DNA of 36,016 nt from Alphaproteobacteria bacterium MarineAlpha9_Bin1. GTDB lineage: Bacteria > Pseudomonadota > Alphaproteobacteria > TMED109. A program made the translations under genes and the position numbers. Every line of letters begins with the position of its first letter. Positions within the stretch are counted from its first letter, which is position 1. Shown here one piece after another: positions 6,717-36,016 of the stretch. Location: the NCBI GenBank assembly GCA_002937675.1, contig PTKJ01000003.1, forward strand, positions 1 to 36,016, in the 5' to 3' direction. The notes beneath the pieces were generated by a model. It searched no databases and had not been told where the DNA came from. It saw nothing but the letters and a program-made list of their open reading frames with translations.

Positions 6717-7984
6717 TCAGTCCACATCCAAATATTTGGTTTCCTTATGCACAAATGCAAAATCTTCAGTATATTCCGAAGGCTGTAAAAACATCAGGAT
6801 CAAAAATATATTTAGAAAATAATCAAGTTTTAATTGATGGTATTTCTTCTTGGTGGACCGCCTGTCACGGCTATAATAATCAAACAATCGTAAAATCTAT
6901 AATAGATCAAGCCAAAAAAATGCCTCATATAATGTTTGGTGGTTTTTCTCATTTCCCGGCGGAAGAGTTGACAGATAATTTACTTAGTATTTTGTCAAAT
7001 AAGTATAAACATATTTTTTATGTGGATTCAGGTTCTGTAGGTATAGAAGTTAGCATGAAAATGGCTGTTCAATTCTGGCTCAATATAGGAATTAAAGGAA
7101 AGAATAAATTTATTAGCTTTAAAAATGCATATCACGGTGACACCCTTGGGGCAATGTCGGTATGCGATCTTGAAGAAGGCATGCATTCATTATTTAAAGG
7201 ATACATTTCTAAACAATTACTGGCTGAAATTCCTAGCACGATGTTACTAAAAGAAAAATTTGAGAAATTTGTCATTAGGCATAAATCTAAGGTTGCTGCA
7301 ATTATTCTAGAACCTCTTGTGCAATGTGCTGGGGGCATGAAAATGCATTCAGCAGATGTTGTAACTTATATCTCAAGAATTGCAAAAAAACATAAAATAT
7401 TGTTTATATTAGACGAAATAGCTACAGGTTTTGGTAGAACTGGAACAATGTTTGCATATGAACAGACATACGTTAGGTCAGATATTCTTTGTTTGGGCAA
7501 AGCTTTAACTGGGGGTACAATGTCATTAGCAGCAGTAGTGGCGTCCTCTGAAATCTATAAAGCTTTTTTAAGTTCTGATTTTTCTAAAGCTTTGATGCAT
7601 GGGCCCACTTATATGGCTAATCCACTCGCTTGTGCAGCGGCTAATGCATCAATAAAAATTTTTAAAAATGAACCACGTCTAGATCAGGTATTGAATATAG
7701 AAAAACTAATTAAGGCTAGGGTCAATATATATAGAAAATTACCTGGTGTCGTAGACGTAAGAGTTAAGGGAGCAGTTGGAGTGATTCAGCTCGAAAAAAT
7801 TGCTGATTTAAATTGGTTAAGAAATAGATTTATAGAAAAAGGTGTATGGATCAGACCTTTTTTAGACGTTATTTATATAATGCCTTGTTTTACAATTAAA
7901 GATCATGAAATCAATAGACTTCTTGATGCTATCGAGGAAATTATTCCTGAATGGGCAGATAAATTTTATAAGGCAAAAAAGTAG
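6713..7984 (+). CDS. bioA: Adenosylmethionine-8-amino-7-oxononanoate aminotransferase
   Basis: 423 aa class-III PLP aminotransferase that uses SAM as amino donor to make 7,8-diaminopelargonic acid. Visible are WFPYAQMQ and the ISSWWTACHGYNN segment typical of BioA, FVDSGSVG-type PLP phosphate binding (here YVDSGSVGIEV), AYHGDT, the LDEIATGFGRTG block with the PLP-N1 Asp (234), and LGKALTGG with the Schiff-base Lys263. It starts at a TTG that shares four bases with the bioB stop. bioC/bioH or other genes for making the pimeloyl moiety are not in the window. The stop codon is followed almost directly by a decayed trkH fragment. Confidence 0.96.
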   Translation: MISPHPNIWFPYAQMQNLQYIPKAVKTSGSKIYLENNQVLIDGISSWWTACHGYNNQTIVKSIIDQAKKMPHIMFGGFSHFPAEELTDNLLSILSNKYKHIFYVDSGSVGIEVSMKMAVQFWLNIGIKGKNKFISFKNAYHGDTLGAMSVCDLEEGMHSLFKGYISKQLLAEIPSTMLLKEKFEKFVIRHKSKVAAIILEPLVQCAGGMKMHSADVVTYISRIAKKHKILFILDEIATGFGRTGTMFAYEQTYVRSDILCLGKALTGGTMSLAAVVASSEIYKAFLSSDFSKALMHGPTYMANPLACAAANASIKIFKNEPRLDQVLNIEKLIKARVNIYRKLPGVVDVRVKGAVGVIQLEKIADLNWLRNRFIEKGVWIRPFLDVIYIMPCFTIKDHEINRLLDAIEEIIPEWADKFYKAKK

Positions 7985-7986
7985 AG

Positions 7987-8261
7987 CAATATGTATGGAT
8001 TACCCATTTGGTATTTAAACCAGAAATTCGTATGGTTCATGGCTTAATGATTAGTGGAGATCCTAGAACTGGAAAATCTTTCTTTGCTTTATTAAATATT
8101 TTGTATCTGTTTTATTTCCCATGTAAAATATATAACATCAAAAATATAAGGTATCCAACGAAAGTGACCAACGTATATATAAAATACAGTAAGTTTATCT
8201 AGGAATACTGCATATCCTAGAGTTTGTTTGACACTTATTACTTCCTTTTTGGAAACGTTGA
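7987..8261 (+). pseudogene. trkH: Decayed 3' end of a second trkH
   Basis: The 280-bp gap after bioA reads on the + strand as WITHLVFKPEIRMVHG, then ISGDPRTGKSFFALLNILYL, and finally an LEFV, stop, HLLLPFWKR, stop string. The intact TrkH of this window has ASIDERTTLSILALSFLFL at about residue 381 onward and ends IEFFALMVLLLPSFWKR. Ser, Asp, Arg-Thr, Ser and Ala-Leu align in the first block, and LLLP.FWKR recurs at the end followed by a stop. The distance between the blocks is about 100 nt shorter than in intact trkH, so an internal deletion is implied, and there are internal stops. The 64-aa ORF 8008-8202 is part of this remnant. A weak inverted repeat CTAGGA...TCCTAG lies at 8199-8220. Homology is inferred by eye and moderate at nucleotide level. 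Confidence 0.6.
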
Positions 8262-8264
8262 TTA

Positions 8265-8945
8265 TTATGGATTAATTTTAGATTCTAATTTTTTTATAAA
8301 CTCTTTTTTTTTTAATCCGCCTCTAATTGGATAATAAAATAACACCTCTATATTTCCAGGTCTTTTAATAAAACCATTTATATCCCATTCTCTCCCAGAA
8401 CTTACATAAACTGGAATTATAGAAGCATTTGTATATTTATATATTGCAAAAATTCCGGACTGTATACTTTGTTTGCTTCCCGATTCTATCCTAGTTCCAT
8501 GTGGAAAAATTATTAATTTATTATTCATCAATAGTTTTTTTTCTATTTTCCCTAACATTTCTCTGAGAGTATTAGCTCCTCCCATTCTATTTATTACTAT
8601 ATGTCCACACCTAACAGCAAACCATCCATAAATAGGTATTATTTTTAACTCACTTTTCATAACATACTTGGCATCAGTGAAATAATCTAAAAACAAAATT
8701 GTATCTAAGGCTGATTCATGTCTTACAGCAAAAATGTTATTTTCTTTTCCAAATTTCTCATATCCTTTATAATCAATATTTATTTTGCATATAATTTTAA
8801 GGTAAAAAATTGTTAATCTTGCCCAAATCGAGGATAGTCTTACACTTGCTTTTTCAGATAATATTAAAGGAAAAAAAATTATTCCAAGTAACAGAGTTGT
8901 AAAAATAAACAAAAAGTTAAATATTAGGGATCTAACAAATATCAA
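8265..8945 (-). CDS. plsC: PlsC-like 1-acylglycerol-3-phosphate acyltransferase
   Basis: 226 aa membrane-associated acyltransferase, expected to acylate lysophosphatidic acid to phosphatidic acid at the inner membrane. One hydrophobic segment (about 8-29) precedes the catalytic RHESALD, an H-x4-D motif (His76, Asp81). YGWFAVRCGHIVINR corresponds to block II. Block III, normally FPEGTR, reads FPHGTR (147-152), with Glu replaced by His. Its start overlaps the ydcF-like gene by 4 bp, so the two are coupled. The family is clear; the exact acyl acceptor is not certain. Confidence 0.85.
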   Translation of the reverse strand: MIFVRSLIFNFLFIFTTLLLGIIFFPLILSEKASVRLSSIWARLTIFYLKIICKINIDYKGYEKFGKENNIFAVRHESALDTILFLDYFTDAKYVMKSELKIIPIYGWFAVRCGHIVINRMGGANTLREMLGKIEKKLLMNNKLIIFPHGTRIESGSKQSIQSGIFAIYKYTNASIIPVYVSSGREWDINGFIKRPGNIEVLFYYPIRGGLKKKEFIKKLESKINP

Positions 8946-30455: not shown

Positions 30456-31691
30456 TTATTCATAAGTTCTTTTGTCTTCAATGACTATTCCATCATTTGG
30501 AATAGCACCTTGCGATACTATTTCTACTTCAGATCTTAATTTCAACTCTGCTCTAATAGCCTCTTTTATATTGTCAATTGATTCGCTGCCATTTTGCTTG
30601 AACTCAACCAACATTTTTATTACATCTTCATGATTTACATTATCTACTTCTAGTCTTAATTTGGATACCGATTTTAATTTTTTTTGTATATTTGCAATTT
30701 GTTCAGGTCTAACAAACATACCCCTAACTTTAGTCGTCTGATCTGCTCTACCCATCCATCCCTTAATTCTCATGGCAGTACGCCCACATCTGCTTTTTTC
30801 TGACATCACAGCAGAAAGATCACCGGTTGCAAATCTAAGTAGCGGATATTCTTCATTTAAGGTAGTCACTACTAATTCTCCCACCTCTCCATCTCGTACT
30901 ACCTGGTCAGTTCCGGGCTTAACTATCTCTACAATAACTTCTTCATCACAAAACATGCCTTCCATATCCCAAGTTTCATAAGCAACTAATCCCAAATCTG
31001 CAGTGCCATAGGACTGTAAGACGTTACAACCCAAATCACTTAAAGTTTTTCTTAATGAAGGCGGACATGCTTCTCCTCCAACCATTCCTGTTTTTAAACT
31101 TGATACGTCCAAATTTTTATCTTTTCCCATCTCCAATATTATTTTGAGAAAAGATGGGGTTCCTACGTAGCGATTCGGTTTTAATTCGCTTATAATACGC
31201 GCCTGTAGTTCTGTGTTGCCTACTCCTCCTGGAATAACACTAATTCCTAACTGATTAGCTGCCTGATCCATCATAAAACCAGCAGGAGTTAGATGATAAG
31301 AAAAAGTATTATACATTATATCACCTTTCCTAAAATTAGCAGCTTTCATTGCCCTCGACATTCTCCAAAAATCTCCTTTTCCTCCAGGCTCGTATATTGG
31401 TCCTGGTGATGCAAAAATATGACTGAAGTCGTAAGCACTCTTCGTTGTTAGGCCACCAAATGGAGGATTCAATGATTGAAATTTTGATAATAAAGATTTT
31501 CGTGTAATAGGAATTAAATTCAAATCTGACCTATCTTTAATTGAGCTGATACTAACATCTTTGAGTATCTGCTTCCACCCCTCTGAATTTGATTTTGCAA
31601 GATCAATAATTTTTCTCAATTTTTCAAATTGATCAGAATTTCTTTCTTCAGGACTTCTTTGTTCTAAAACATCATTTGATTTACTTTCCAT
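30456..31691 (-). CDS. PaaK-like AMP-forming ligase family protein, atypical motifs
   Basis: 411 aa, overall shape of the phenylacetate-CoA ligase branch of ANL adenylating enzymes (PaaK about 430 aa). GEACPPSLRKTL, VLQSYGTADLGLVAYE (224-239), VGELVVTTL and RFATGDLSAV (286-294) match the A5-A7 region; GMFVRPEQIANI matches the start of the C-terminal domain. However, the phosphate-binding loop, normally SSGTTGKP, is ASPGPIYEPG (94-103), and the glutamate expected after YG is Ala-Asp. Either the family adenylates in an altered way or it lacks ligase activity. A strong GAGGAAAG precedes the ATG. It lies 28 bp after acnA and 16 bp before ccmA. The substrate is unknown. Confidence 0.75.
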   Translation of the reverse strand: MESKSNDVLEQRSPEERNSDQFEKLRKIIDLAKSNSEGWKQILKDVSISSIKDRSDLNLIPITRKSLLSKFQSLNPPFGGLTTKSAYDFSHIFASPGPIYEPGGKGDFWRMSRAMKAANFRKGDIMYNTFSYHLTPAGFMMDQAANQLGISVIPGGVGNTELQARIISELKPNRYVGTPSFLKIILEMGKDKNLDVSSLKTGMVGGEACPPSLRKTLSDLGCNVLQSYGTADLGLVAYETWDMEGMFCDEEVIVEIVKPGTDQVVRDGEVGELVVTTLNEEYPLLRFATGDLSAVMSEKSRCGRTAMRIKGWMGRADQTTKVRGMFVRPEQIANIQKKLKSVSKLRLEVDNVNHEDVIKMLVEFKQNGSESIDNIKEAIRAELKLRSEVEIVSQGAIPNDGIVIEDKRTYE

Positions 31692-31719
31692 TTTGCTTTC
31701 CTCAGGATCTACTTTAAAT

Positions 31720-34359
31720 TTAATTATTAATTAAATTTCTTAATACGTAATGTAAAATGCCTCCGTTTCTGTAGTATTCTAGCTCACTTTTTGTATCTAT
31801 TCTACATAGAACATTTATCTTAGAAAAACTTTTATCTGGATACTCAACATCTAACTCTAACTCACAACCAGGAGATAAAGCATTTTCAATATTTCTTAAA
31901 CTAAATTTTTCTTTTCCTTTAAGATTAAATTTTTCTGCAGATTCCTCATTCTTAAATTCCACAGGAAGAACTCCCATTCCTATTAAATTTGAACGATGTA
32001 TTCTCTCAAAACTTTCTGCAAGTACTAGTTTAACTCCCAGAAGATAGGTACCTTTGGCCGCCCAGTCTCTAGAAGAACCTGTTCCATACTCTTTGCCTGC
32101 GATGATAATTAATGGAATTTTATTTTTTTGATACTCTAGAGAAGCATCATATATAGACAGGACATTTTCATCAGGAGCACGCGTCGTAAATCCTCCTTCA
32201 ACTTCTGGAACCATTTTATTGCGAATTCTAATATTTCCAAAAGTTCCCCTTATCATAATTTCATGATTGCCTCTTCTGCTTCCATAGGAATTAAAATTAT
32301 TTTCAGAAATCTGTCTGTCTGTTAAATACTTTCCAGCAGGGGATGTTTTTTTAATTACACCTGCAGGGGATATATGGTCAGTAGTAATAGAATCACCGAG
32401 AATAGCTAAACTTCTTGCTTCAATAATATCTTCTAGAGGTTTTACATCTTTTTGCATATTTTTAAAATATGGTGGGTATCTTACATAAGTGGAAGTTGGA
32501 TCCCAGTTATAAGTTATCCCTACTCCAGCCCTAATACCTTTCCATTCAGGAGTCCCTTCAAATATATCTTTATATCTTCTAGTAAACATTTCTTTTTTAA
32601 GACACAACTTTAAAACTTCATTTATTTCGTTATTATTTGGCCATAGATCAGATAAATAGATAGGTTTTTTATCTTTGCCAAAACCAATTGGACTAGTAGT
32701 AATATCTTTAGCTAAGGTACCAAATATAGAATAGGCAACTACTAATGGTGGTGAAGCTAACCAATTAGCTTTTATAAAAGGATTTATCCTGCCTTCAAAA
32801 TTTCTATTGCCTGATAATACTGAGCAAACTAACAAATTATTCTCTTGAATAGCTGATTCTATCTCCTCATCAAGGGGGCCCGAATTTCCAATACATGTTG
32901 TACAACCATAACCAACAATATAAAAACCTAGTTTTTCAAGAGGTTCTAGAAGACCTGATGAAGATAAATAATCACTGACTACTTTACTTCCTGGAGCTAA
33001 AGAAGTTTTCACCCAAGGCTTTTTTTCCAATCCTAATTCAACAGCCTTTTTTGCTAATAGCCCTGCAGCTATCATCACTGAGGGATTTGAAGTATTTGTA
33101 CATGAAGTTATCGCGGCAATAGCAACATCTCCATTTAAAATAGTATTCTTATCTCTAGAACCTAAATTATTACCTATAAATTTTTTTGTAACATCTGATA
33201 CTAAATTTAACTTTACTCTATCTTGCGGTCTTATAGGACCAGACATACTGGATTCAACATCTGACAAATTCAACTCTAATATATCTTTATATAGTAAATC
33301 TTTAGTAGTAGAATCTCTCCACATACCTTGTGTTTTTGCATAAACCTCTACATGTTTAGAATCTCTTCCGGTAAATTCAAGGTATCTACACGTTTCCTTA
33401 TCTATCGGAAAAAATCCACATGTAGCTCCATACTCAGGAGCCATATTCGCAATTGTTGCTCTATCAGCTATTCCTAATTCATCCAAACCTGAACCAAAAA
33501 ACTCAACAAATTTTCCTACTACTCCTTTTTTTCTTAGTAATTCTGTAATAGTTAATACTAGATCTGTAGCAGTAACTCCTTCATTTAAACTGCCATATAG
33601 TTTTACGCCTATTACTTCAGGAATTTTCATAGATATAGACTGTCCTAACATTACAGCCTCAGCCTCTATTCCTCCTACACCCCAACCTAATACAGCCAAT
33701 CCATTGACCATAGTAGTATGACTATCTGTGCCCACCAAAGTATCAGGAAAAAGCATATTTTTCTCATTATCCTCAGATATCCATATTACTTTCGATAAAT
33801 ATTCAAGATTTACCTGGTGGCATATTCCAGTTCCGGGCGGCACCACTCTAAAGTTTTTAAATGCTTGTTGCCCCCATTTTAAAAAAGAATATCTCTCTTT
33901 ATTTCTTTCAAATTCTATCTTAACATTTGCATTAAAAGCTTCCTTAGAACCTGCTCTATCAACTGAAACTGAATGATCTATAACTAAGTCCACAGGTGAA
34001 AGAGGATTTATGGAAGAAGGACTGATCCCAAAATCTGATACTGCCTGTCTCATTGCAGCAAAATCTACAATAGCAGGTACTCCTGTGAAATCTTGCATTA
34101 AGACTCTAGCTGGTCTATAGAAAATATCTACATCAGCGGAACTATTTTTAGAACTATTAATTAATGCATCTATTTGTCTTGTATCTATATCTTTTCTGTC
34201 TAAATTTCTTAAAAGATTTTCTAAAATAACTTTTATAGAATATGGCAAGTTATCTATATTTCCAAATAATTCACTTGCTTTATTTAGAGAGTAGTAGTCA
34301 TATTCCTTCCCTTTAATTTTTATGGAGTCCTTAAAATTACTTGAGTTAACTTCCTCCAT
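31720..34359 (-). CDS. acnA: Aconitate hydratase A
   Basis: 879 aa, normal length for AcnA/IRP-type aconitase, which isomerises citrate to isocitrate in the TCA cycle. The three cluster ligands are Cys420 (SCTNTSNPSVM) and Cys486/Cys489 (GCTTCIGNSGP). DFTGVPAIVDFAAMR, VGTDSHTTMVNGL, SRRGNHEIMIRGTF and GKEYGTGSSRDWAAKG (C-terminal swivel domain) are intact. A Shine-Dalgarno AAAGGTG lies about 8 nt before the ATG. Flanked by the phosphatase-like gene (37 bp upstream) and the PaaK-like gene (28 bp downstream), all minus strand. Confidence 0.98.
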   Translation of the reverse strand: MEEVNSSNFKDSIKIKGKEYDYYSLNKASELFGNIDNLPYSIKVILENLLRNLDRKDIDTRQIDALINSSKNSSADVDIFYRPARVLMQDFTGVPAIVDFAAMRQAVSDFGISPSSINPLSPVDLVIDHSVSVDRAGSKEAFNANVKIEFERNKERYSFLKWGQQAFKNFRVVPPGTGICHQVNLEYLSKVIWISEDNEKNMLFPDTLVGTDSHTTMVNGLAVLGWGVGGIEAEAVMLGQSISMKIPEVIGVKLYGSLNEGVTATDLVLTITELLRKKGVVGKFVEFFGSGLDELGIADRATIANMAPEYGATCGFFPIDKETCRYLEFTGRDSKHVEVYAKTQGMWRDSTTKDLLYKDILELNLSDVESSMSGPIRPQDRVKLNLVSDVTKKFIGNNLGSRDKNTILNGDVAIAAITSCTNTSNPSVMIAAGLLAKKAVELGLEKKPWVKTSLAPGSKVVSDYLSSSGLLEPLEKLGFYIVGYGCTTCIGNSGPLDEEIESAIQENNLLVCSVLSGNRNFEGRINPFIKANWLASPPLVVAYSIFGTLAKDITTSPIGFGKDKKPIYLSDLWPNNNEINEVLKLCLKKEMFTRRYKDIFEGTPEWKGIRAGVGITYNWDPTSTYVRYPPYFKNMQKDVKPLEDIIEARSLAILGDSITTDHISPAGVIKKTSPAGKYLTDRQISENNFNSYGSRRGNHEIMIRGTFGNIRIRNKMVPEVEGGFTTRAPDENVLSIYDASLEYQKNKIPLIIIAGKEYGTGSSRDWAAKGTYLLGVKLVLAESFERIHRSNLIGMGVLPVEFKNEESAEKFNLKGKEKFSLRNIENALSPGCELELDVEYPDKSFSKINVLCRIDTKSELEYYRNGGILHYVLRNLINN

Positions 34360-34396: not shown

Positions 34397-35194
34397 TTAA
34401 CCTTGAATTGTTTCTAGCAAATTTCCATCAGACGAAAATAATGCAGCAAAAACCCCTTTATCACCAGAATCTAGAGTGATTCCATATTTTCCTGATGCTA
34501 AACCTTTGCCTTCTGGATCAAGCCCTCTTATAAATCTTCTAGTTATACCATAAGGCTCATCTAAATTTGAAAACCCTCCTCCCCACCAAAGTTCGTCACT
34601 TTGTGCTTCTAAAGGTCGATCTTTAGCAAGTCCAGCCGATACCATTAAAACACTTCTATCATCATTGTACGCAAGTCTCTTCAATGTAGAAATATACTTA
34701 TAATGACCACTTTGTTTAACCAAAGCTTCGTGAATTCTTACCGATGTACGAGATAAGGCTAAGGCCCCGTCTTTAGCAGCATTTTTAAGTAGACCAGAAG
34801 ATATTCCATAAGCAGAAAGTATTGAATCAAGACCTCTACTGTACATCCATTCAACCAATTCTTTAGGATTAGGAGATATATGAAGTTGCCTAGACTTATC
34901 GAGCAACTCTTCAAATTGACCCCTTAAAAATACCACATCGTTTACGTCTGAAGAATAATTGGATATAAAATTAGAACGTAAAAGGAGAGCTACATCTACA
35001 GATTTTAGTGAAAAATTCTCTCCTTTTGAAGATGGGCCTACAATATTTCCAGTAAAAACTAGTCTATCAAGCAATTTTTGTTTATTTAAAATTTTTTTAG
35101 ATACAGTATTAAGGGCATTTGCTCTTCCTCTCACAGCACCTATAACCCACACTCTTTTATAGGATCCCAAATTATGTAAACGCAAGTTTTGCAT
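34397..35194 (-). CDS. Metallophosphoesterase-like protein lacking metal ligands
   Basis: 265 aa. The spacing of short motifs follows bacterial PPP/symmetrical phosphoesterases, but each metal-binding motif is altered: VIGAVRGR (17-24) where active enzymes have GDIHGR, VFTGNIVGPSSKG (46-58) for GDxVDRG, and VFLRGQFEELL (88-98) for RGNHE. DELWWGGG and ITRRFIRGLDPEGKG near the C-terminus fit the same fold. I recall related alphaproteobacterial proteins annotated as phosphatase-like with similar losses (RGQQEEM in place of RGNHE), so this seems a conserved pseudoenzyme class and not a decayed gene. Position between carD and acnA; role unknown. Confidence 0.65.
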   Translation of the reverse strand: MQNLRLHNLGSYKRVWVIGAVRGRANALNTVSKKILNKQKLLDRLVFTGNIVGPSSKGENFSLKSVDVALLLRSNFISNYSSDVNDVVFLRGQFEELLDKSRQLHISPNPKELVEWMYSRGLDSILSAYGISSGLLKNAAKDGALALSRTSVRIHEALVKQSGHYKYISTLKRLAYNDDRSVLMVSAGLAKDRPLEAQSDELWWGGGFSNLDEPYGITRRFIRGLDPEGKGLASGKYGITLDSGDKGVFAALFSSDGNLLETIQG

Positions 35195-35239: not shown

Positions 35240-35740
35240 CTAAGATTTTTTTAAATTTTCTTCCACTTTCTTTTGAGCTTCAGATAAATCTATATTTTTT
35301 ATTACTACTAATTCTCTAATAAACCGGTTCAAAGCTTTTTCATAAAGTTGTCTTTCGCTATATGACTGTTCCGGGTCATCTTCTCCTCTATATAAATCCC
35401 TTATTACTTCAGCTGTAGAAACTAAATCTCCCTTATTTAACTTATCTTTATAGTCTTTCTCTCTTTTAGCCCACATCGTTCTCTTAATTTTTATTTTTCC
35501 TCTTAAAACTGAAAGTGCCGCTTCCATATCTGCTTCAGCTGAAACTGCTCTTAATCCCAATTCGTGAATTTTATTAACCGGAATTCTCAAAGTCATCTTT
35601 TCATTCTCAAAATATACTATTATGAATTCCACCTCGTCTTCTGAAAGCACTTGTTTTTCGAAGCCTAAAGTTTTTCCTAAACCGTGCCTTGGATAAACAA
35701 TCCAATCACCTTCTGAAAAGTTCCCTGTAACTAAATTCAT
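35240..35740 (-). CDS. carD: CarD/CdnL-family transcription regulator
   Basis: 166 aa. The N-terminal RNA-polymerase-interacting Tudor-like domain reads FSEGDWIVYPRHGLGKTLGF, followed by MTLRIPVNKIHELGLRAVS and a helical DNA-binding C-terminal domain (KIKRTMWAKREKDYKDKL, DLYRGEDDPEQSYSERQLYEKAL). CdnL proteins bind the RNAP beta subunit and stabilise open complexes at rRNA and growth promoters in alphaproteobacteria and others. It is 27 bp downstream of fdxA, a pairing common in alphaproteobacteria. Confidence 0.94.
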   Translation of the reverse strand: MNLVTGNFSEGDWIVYPRHGLGKTLGFEKQVLSEDEVEFIIVYFENEKMTLRIPVNKIHELGLRAVSAEADMEAALSVLRGKIKIKRTMWAKREKDYKDKLNKGDLVSTAEVIRDLYRGEDDPEQSYSERQLYEKALNRFIRELVVIKNIDLSEAQKKVEENLKKS

Positions 35741-35767: not shown

Positions 35768-36016
35768 TTATTTTTCAGTATTTCCCGGCTTATCAGAAAA
35801 ATATTTCTTAAATTTACCTTCTACTCCATCAAAATCTTCCCCATCCTTAGGAGGAACACCCTTACGAGTAATATTAGGCCATAAATTTGATTGCTTAGAA
35901 TTAAGATCCAGCCATTCATCAGCTGATGATTCAGAATCAGGCAAAATCGCCTCAGTTGGGCATTCAGGTTCACATACGCCACAATCTATACATTCATCCG
36001 GATGGATAACCAACAT
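35768..36016 (-). CDS. fdxA: Ferredoxin FdxA (partial, 5' end beyond window)
   Basis: Only the C-terminal 82 residues lie in the window. The reading frame is open at the right edge. The first Met ([12 protein letters not shown]) is internal in FdxA-type 7Fe ferredoxins, which are about 112 aa long, so about 30 residues with the first cluster's N-terminal cysteines are outside. [16 protein letters not shown] supplies cysteines for the [4Fe-4S] cluster and one for the [3Fe-4S] site. The tail [19 protein letters not shown] is typical of the alphaproteobacterial form. Cytoplasmic electron carrier. Confidence 0.92.

Follow-up and report, generated by a model that had tools for sequence, protein, structure and literature searches.

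A carD-linked family of PPP-derived proteins in Alphaproteobacteria is probably an anciently inactivated pseudophosphatase kept for a non-catalytic role

The transcription factor CdnL is said to occur in virtually all Alphaproteobacteria, where it binds RNA polymerase; rRNA transcription suffers when it is depleted (PMC5324124). Among the open-access papers on CdnL/CarD that were searched, we found no role ascribed to an adjacent pseudophosphatase. Bacterial-type PPP phosphatases carry (I/L/V)D(S/T)G as their C-terminal signature, and within the same superfamily the second Asp of GDxxDRG is likewise missing from ApaH and ApaH-like (ALPH) proteins (PMC535813). Pseudophosphatases have mostly been described from eukaryotes. 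Examples are PHLPP2 and PTPRU, in which the catalytic residues have reportedly diverged and the protein is kept (PMC12002173, PMC7320164). Here we describe a bacterial family of this kind, which occurs in about a third of the sampled alphaproteobacterial genomes. We name the gene ppX. The family itself is real, and it appears to be undescribed: the open-access papers searched on CarD/CdnL in connection with phosphoesterases, and on alphaproteobacterial pseudophosphatases, contain no account of it.

The window is the whole stretch of DNA analysed, 36,016 nucleotides from Alphaproteobacteria bacterium MarineAlpha9_Bin1 (contig PTKJ01000003.1, positions 1 to 36,016). Its ppX reading frame begins with ATG and has no internal stop, in keeping with the intact frame named in the original prediction, and the translated ORF contains VWVIGAVRGRAN, VFTGNIVGPSSKGEN and VVFLRGQFEELLDK. 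The three strings on which that prediction was built, GAVRGR, TGNIVGPSSKG and RGQFEE, match the translation exactly. Gaps of 45 nt (carD-ppX) and 37 nt (ppX-acnA) separate the three genes on the same strand; the predicted order and the Pfam domains agree. Promoter and terminator scans performed no better than on shuffled sequences. Beyond acnA lies a gene for an AMP-binding enzyme (PF00501, 30456-31691, minus strand), whose linkage to the cluster persists across genera of the window's family. In one other locus (L003), rpoH (7483-8346) stands between acnA and this gene; it is absent from the corresponding place in the window (31691-31720). Elsewhere in the window's genome, on contig C72, there is a sigma-32-like gene that is 39% identical to its counterpart in locus L006.

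Table 1. Genes around ppX in the window and motifs of the ppX protein (residue numbers refer to that protein).
Feature	Coordinates	Strand	Basis or remark
ppX, pseudo-PPP phosphatase gene	34397..35194	(-)	265 aa, intact ORF, relatives, PPP homology
carD (CdnL-type RNA polymerase-binding transcription factor), directly upstream of ppX	35240..35740	(-)	PF02559 + PF21095
acnA (aconitase), downstream of ppX	31720..34359	(-)	PF00330 + PF00694
fdxA-type ferredoxin gene, upstream of carD, running off the window edge	35768..36016	(-)	68% identical to L006 fdxA
Motif I, GAVRGR, residues 19-24, replacing GDxHGR	35123..35140	(-)	metal-ligand Asp and His gone
Motif II, TGNIVGPSSKG, residues 48-58, replacing GDYVDRG	35021..35053	(-)	both Asp (bridging and second) and the clamp Arg gone
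Motif III, RGQFEE, residues 91-96, replacing RGNHE	34907..34924	(-)	Arg91 and Glu95 retained
VSAG, residues 185-188, replacing VHAG	34631..34642	(-)	His of HAG is Ser
WWGGG, residues 203-207, replacing LWIRD	34574..34588	(-)	second phosphate-clamp Arg gone
RFIRGLDP, residues 220-227, replacing VVHGHT	34514..34537	(-)	metal-ligand His gone, new conserved Arg223
LDSG, residues 241-244, bacterial-type PPP fourth signature (I/L/V)D(S/T)G kept	34463..34474	(-)	sequence

The replacement of metal motifs goes further than first noticed. Besides the three N-terminal motifs, the window protein has lost the histidines of HAG and GHT and both phosphate-clamp arginines (HAG has become SAG, WIR has become WWG, and VHGH has become IRGL), so that none of the eight PPP ligand positions is kept. 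Its LDSG still matches the bacterial-type PPP signature; many relatives have LDGG there. In the joint alignment with canonical PPPs, the Asp at the column of canonical Asp213 is kept in 93% of the family.

Searching with the window protein alone, we obtained little: Pfam Metallophos_3 scored below its cut-off (E=0.0033), NCBIfam returned no relevant match, and phmmer found no phosphatase in the PDB. No Pfam or NCBIfam model recognises the family. When profiles were compared, an alignment of 67 family sequences against 30 canonical PPPs from Alphaproteobacteria, each carrying the GDxHG and GDxxD motifs, yielded a full-length HHalign match (E=3.2e-29, probability 99.8%, 224 aligned columns). BLAST from a canonical PPP reached family members at up to E=1.1e-15, the sequences being about 28-35% identical across the entire domain. 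Against solved structures, the family profile matched RLPH2 (5vjv) at E=8.6e-6 and a diadenosine tetraphosphatase (2qjc) at E=2.5e-5, and a canonical relative matched RLPH2 and PP1-type phosphatases. An unrelated protein and another, different metallophosphoesterase, run as controls, produced no matches. At the level of sequence, a chance resemblance to PPPs is excluded. In a tree of 68 rows built by a quick method, the whole family falls on one side of a single branch (SH-aLRT 100). An AlphaFold model from a three-row alignment reached a pLDDT of 46, and Foldseek found no significant match to that model; the model is of too low a quality for either result to count as evidence. From the homology we infer that the family retains a PPP-like fold.

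The phosphatase ancestry claimed by the original prediction is borne out. The closest active relatives, rather than being ApaH or PrpE as such, are PPP protein phosphatases of Alphaproteobacteria (Rhilph type). The prediction had offered a nucleotide or Ap4A sensor as an example of what the protein might be. Such a sensor, if derived from ApaH, would agree with the weak similarity that 15 of 34 members show to NF001204, the ApaH model (best E=6.1e-7), with the profile match to 2qjc and with the conserved Arg91 and Arg223, which could bind phosphate. However, the ApaH scores stay far below the 176-bit cut-off (25 bits for the best of six relatives shown), and the relatives with the best support are PPP protein phosphatases; the window protein had no ApaH match in its NCBIfam listing up to E=10, and none of our results points towards sensing of Ap4A or nucleotides. 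An ApaH-derived sensor thus appears distinctly improbable.

We then turn to how widely the family occurs. The window's order comprises a single family with 28 sampled genomes; eight of them, the window's included, carry ppX, and the other copies are 59-80% identical. A further match (G015, E=6e-4) fell on a triosephosphate isomerase-like ORF and was taken as chance. With a profile of nine sequences from the window's family, 135 of 385 alphaproteobacterial genomes were matched. One of these matches (G108, E=7.5e-5) turned out to be a canonical PPP; we made it the outgroup, leaving 134 of 385 genomes with a family member. The viral contigs searched held no relatives. Plasmid matches of one relative were below 31% identity, with record names that look like ordinary metallophosphoesterases, and were set aside. 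One assembly (G008) contains two near-identical terB-fdxA-carD-ppX clusters (L008 on contig C21, L012 on contig C28), probably a strain duplication in the bin.

We aligned 135 family members and the G108 outgroup to the family profile; these members are nearly all the class-search matches (130 of 135 fetched) plus further loci from the window's family. The motif I Asp is absent from all 135 (A in 87, S in 37, C in 5, P in 4, T in 1, one gap). The bridging Asp of motif II is equally absent, with N in 128, and so is the second Asp, with G in 134. The histidines fared variably: that of motif I, an Arg in the window protein, is kept in 103 relatives, that of HAG in 64, that of GHT in 4 and that of motif III in 2, where the others mostly have Q. 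No member keeps more than three of the eight ligand positions. The G108 protein keeps all eight, confirming the alignment register. The alignment of orthologues that had been proposed as a check thus finds the aspartate losses of motifs I and II to be universal among these relatives, which makes them ancestral, not recent.

Performing a selective-loss comparison, we took the 62 columns in which conservation among canonical PPPs reaches 90% or more. Eleven of them are active-site columns, an assignment we take from established PPP knowledge (L172 numbering: D14, H16, D48, D51, R52, N80, H81, H159, R179, H195, H197). Retention in the family fell below 20% in 9 of these 11 columns versus 16 of the 51 others (Fisher p=0.003). 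The active site was thus selectively lost and structural columns were kept, among them Gly49, Gly92, Trp116, Gly121, Tyr129, His164, Gln198 and Asp242. The second phosphate-clamp Arg (canonical R179) is present in 97% of canonical PPPs and 0% of the family in the joint alignment, whereas an Arg at the residue-223 column occurs in 90% of the family and 0% of canonical PPPs. Together with Arg223, the newly fixed Trp16, Asn50, Gly53, Arg73, Arg91, Ala175 and Trp203 point to a new constraint. We found no newly conserved set of acidic or His residues in the joint alignment that would hint at a substitute dimetal site, and we reject such a site as unsupported by the conserved residues. Both things that the pseudophosphatase prediction named as able to overturn it were thus examined at the level of sequence: the ancestry is that of a metallophosphoesterase (PPP), and no replacement dimetal site is suggested. 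We infer that the ppX protein would be unable to hydrolyse phosphoesters by the dimetal mechanism.

A new active site could still have arisen, working through a single metal on a remaining His or through metal-free Arg/Glu chemistry and catalysing a different reaction. The newly conserved polar Asn50, Arg91, Glu96 and Arg223 at the old motifs would suit this, there are pseudoenzymes whose catalytic residues have migrated (PMC10211241), and the motif I His, in most relatives outside the window's family, and the HAG His, in about half, could in those members still hold one metal. Yet the window protein lacks these histidines too, and purifying selection continues in its lineage. Of acidic residues, Glu95 and Asp242 remain, but canonical PPPs conserve both just as well and are not known to use them as metal ligands. 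A cryptic enzyme therefore seems to us an improbable reading.

The protein might instead act as a decoy or competitor of active PPPs, binding and shielding their phosphorylated substrates or regulators. This is a known mode of pseudophosphatases in eukaryotes, and active PPPs, which share the ancestry of ppX, occur in many ppX-bearing genomes. However, the window's genome has no canonical PPP at E<=1e-6 (in an assembly that is 83% complete), and with the second phosphate-clamp Arg lost throughout the family, substrate mimicry would need another surface. We regard this as still less probable. As for a decaying relic carried along with carD, lost catalytic motifs and the absence of ppX from some relatives would fit, but pairwise dN/dS among close relatives is about 0.04-0.24 (0.27 for one near-identical pair), all but one of the listed class-search members are free of internal stops, and the identity across the family's genera and the invariant positions across the class speak against decay, so we reject it as next to impossible. 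The retention under selection foreseen by the original prediction holds, and the selection is purifying.

Inspecting the neighbourhoods, we find ppX tightly linked to carD. In 118 of 136 loci carD lies upstream in the same direction, nearly always directly, and the conserved cluster reads terB-fdxA-carD-ppX, with fdxA and terB upstream of carD. Downstream, rpoH was found in 54 of 136 loci (47 on the same strand) within the short flanks fetched, and acnA in 4 of 136; acnA lies behind ppX in some genera of the window's family. The tight carD-ppX-acnA run of the original prediction hence holds in the window, and carD is the neighbour class-wide, but acnA is not the usual one; downstream of ppX it is often rpoH. 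carD is present in 132 of 134 ppX-bearing genomes versus 205 of 251 others (p=1.6e-7, a value that ignores kinship); as almost the whole class has carD, this co-occurrence is weak and deserves little weight. Expression alone can also be the reason why a gene neighbourhood persists. In one genus of the window's family (read in G027, L212 1-3477), carD stands immediately before acnA and ppX is missing, so CarD does not require ppX; the CarD found there is a 378-aa ORF with a long Lys/Ala/Ser-rich N-terminal extension. In three further genera of that family (g4, g5, g7) we found neither carD nor ppX; several of these genomes are incomplete, and one is 97% complete.

By sequence, the family is homologous to PPPs, lacks their catalytic motifs and is selectively maintained, as is expected of a pseudophosphatase. 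Because essentially the whole catalytic centre is lost and the family is strongly conserved and nearly always found beside carD, ppX most likely acts by binding and not by chemistry. That it is an inactive PPP retained for binding appears very probable. The fuller reading that we favour, an anciently inactivated PPP pseudophosphatase kept as a non-catalytic protein and most likely serving a CarD-linked binding role, is probable, its regulatory link to CarD being suggested by gene order. The metal-binding and phosphate-clamping residues would have been lost once, in the ancestor of a large alphaproteobacterial group, after which ppX would have been maintained as a non-catalytic protein. It is most likely co-expressed with CarD and most likely an accessory protein or a sensor, either in the CarD/RNA-polymerase system or in a stress-sigma system. 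The old cleft is now lined by Arg91 and Asn50, both conserved, and by the gained Arg223, in the place of the former metals and ligands; without any metal, it may take up an anionic ligand or a partner that carries phosphate. We suggest a role in CarD/RNA-polymerase or heat-shock control tentatively, at somewhat under even chances, and it is possible but rather doubtful that the former cleft has phosphate or a nucleotide as its ligand. It is unlikely, though conceivable, that ppX serves much of the Alphaproteobacteria as a dedicated CarD/RNA-polymerase partner or ligand sensor, through which housekeeping and heat-shock transcription would respond to a phosphorylated or nucleotide signal.

In this family, chemistry appears to have been lost once and to have been followed by strong selection beside carD. 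An automatic "metallophosphoesterase" label would mislead for such proteins, and for model alphaproteobacteria ppX offers a testable candidate for a gene that regulates CdnL/CarD-dependent transcription.

The canonical alphaproteobacterial PPPs and the plant RLPH/Rhilph enzymes (5vjv) are the closest described systems. They share with ppX homology over the full length and structural residues including His164, and with the window protein the D(S/T)G signature; the ppX family differs from them in having lost all three signature motifs and the clamp arginines, in its newly conserved Trp, Arg and Asn residues, and in forming a separate clade on a long branch. ApaH and the ALPH diadenosine tetraphosphatases belong to the PPP superfamily too and give weak colinear profile matches to the family. 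However, ApaH keeps its metal ligands, whereas the ppX family is without them and scores far under the ApaH cut-off. In contrast to PHLPP2 and PTPRU, which are eukaryotic and of other folds, the ppX family is bacterial, derived from PPPs and tied to a transcription-factor gene.
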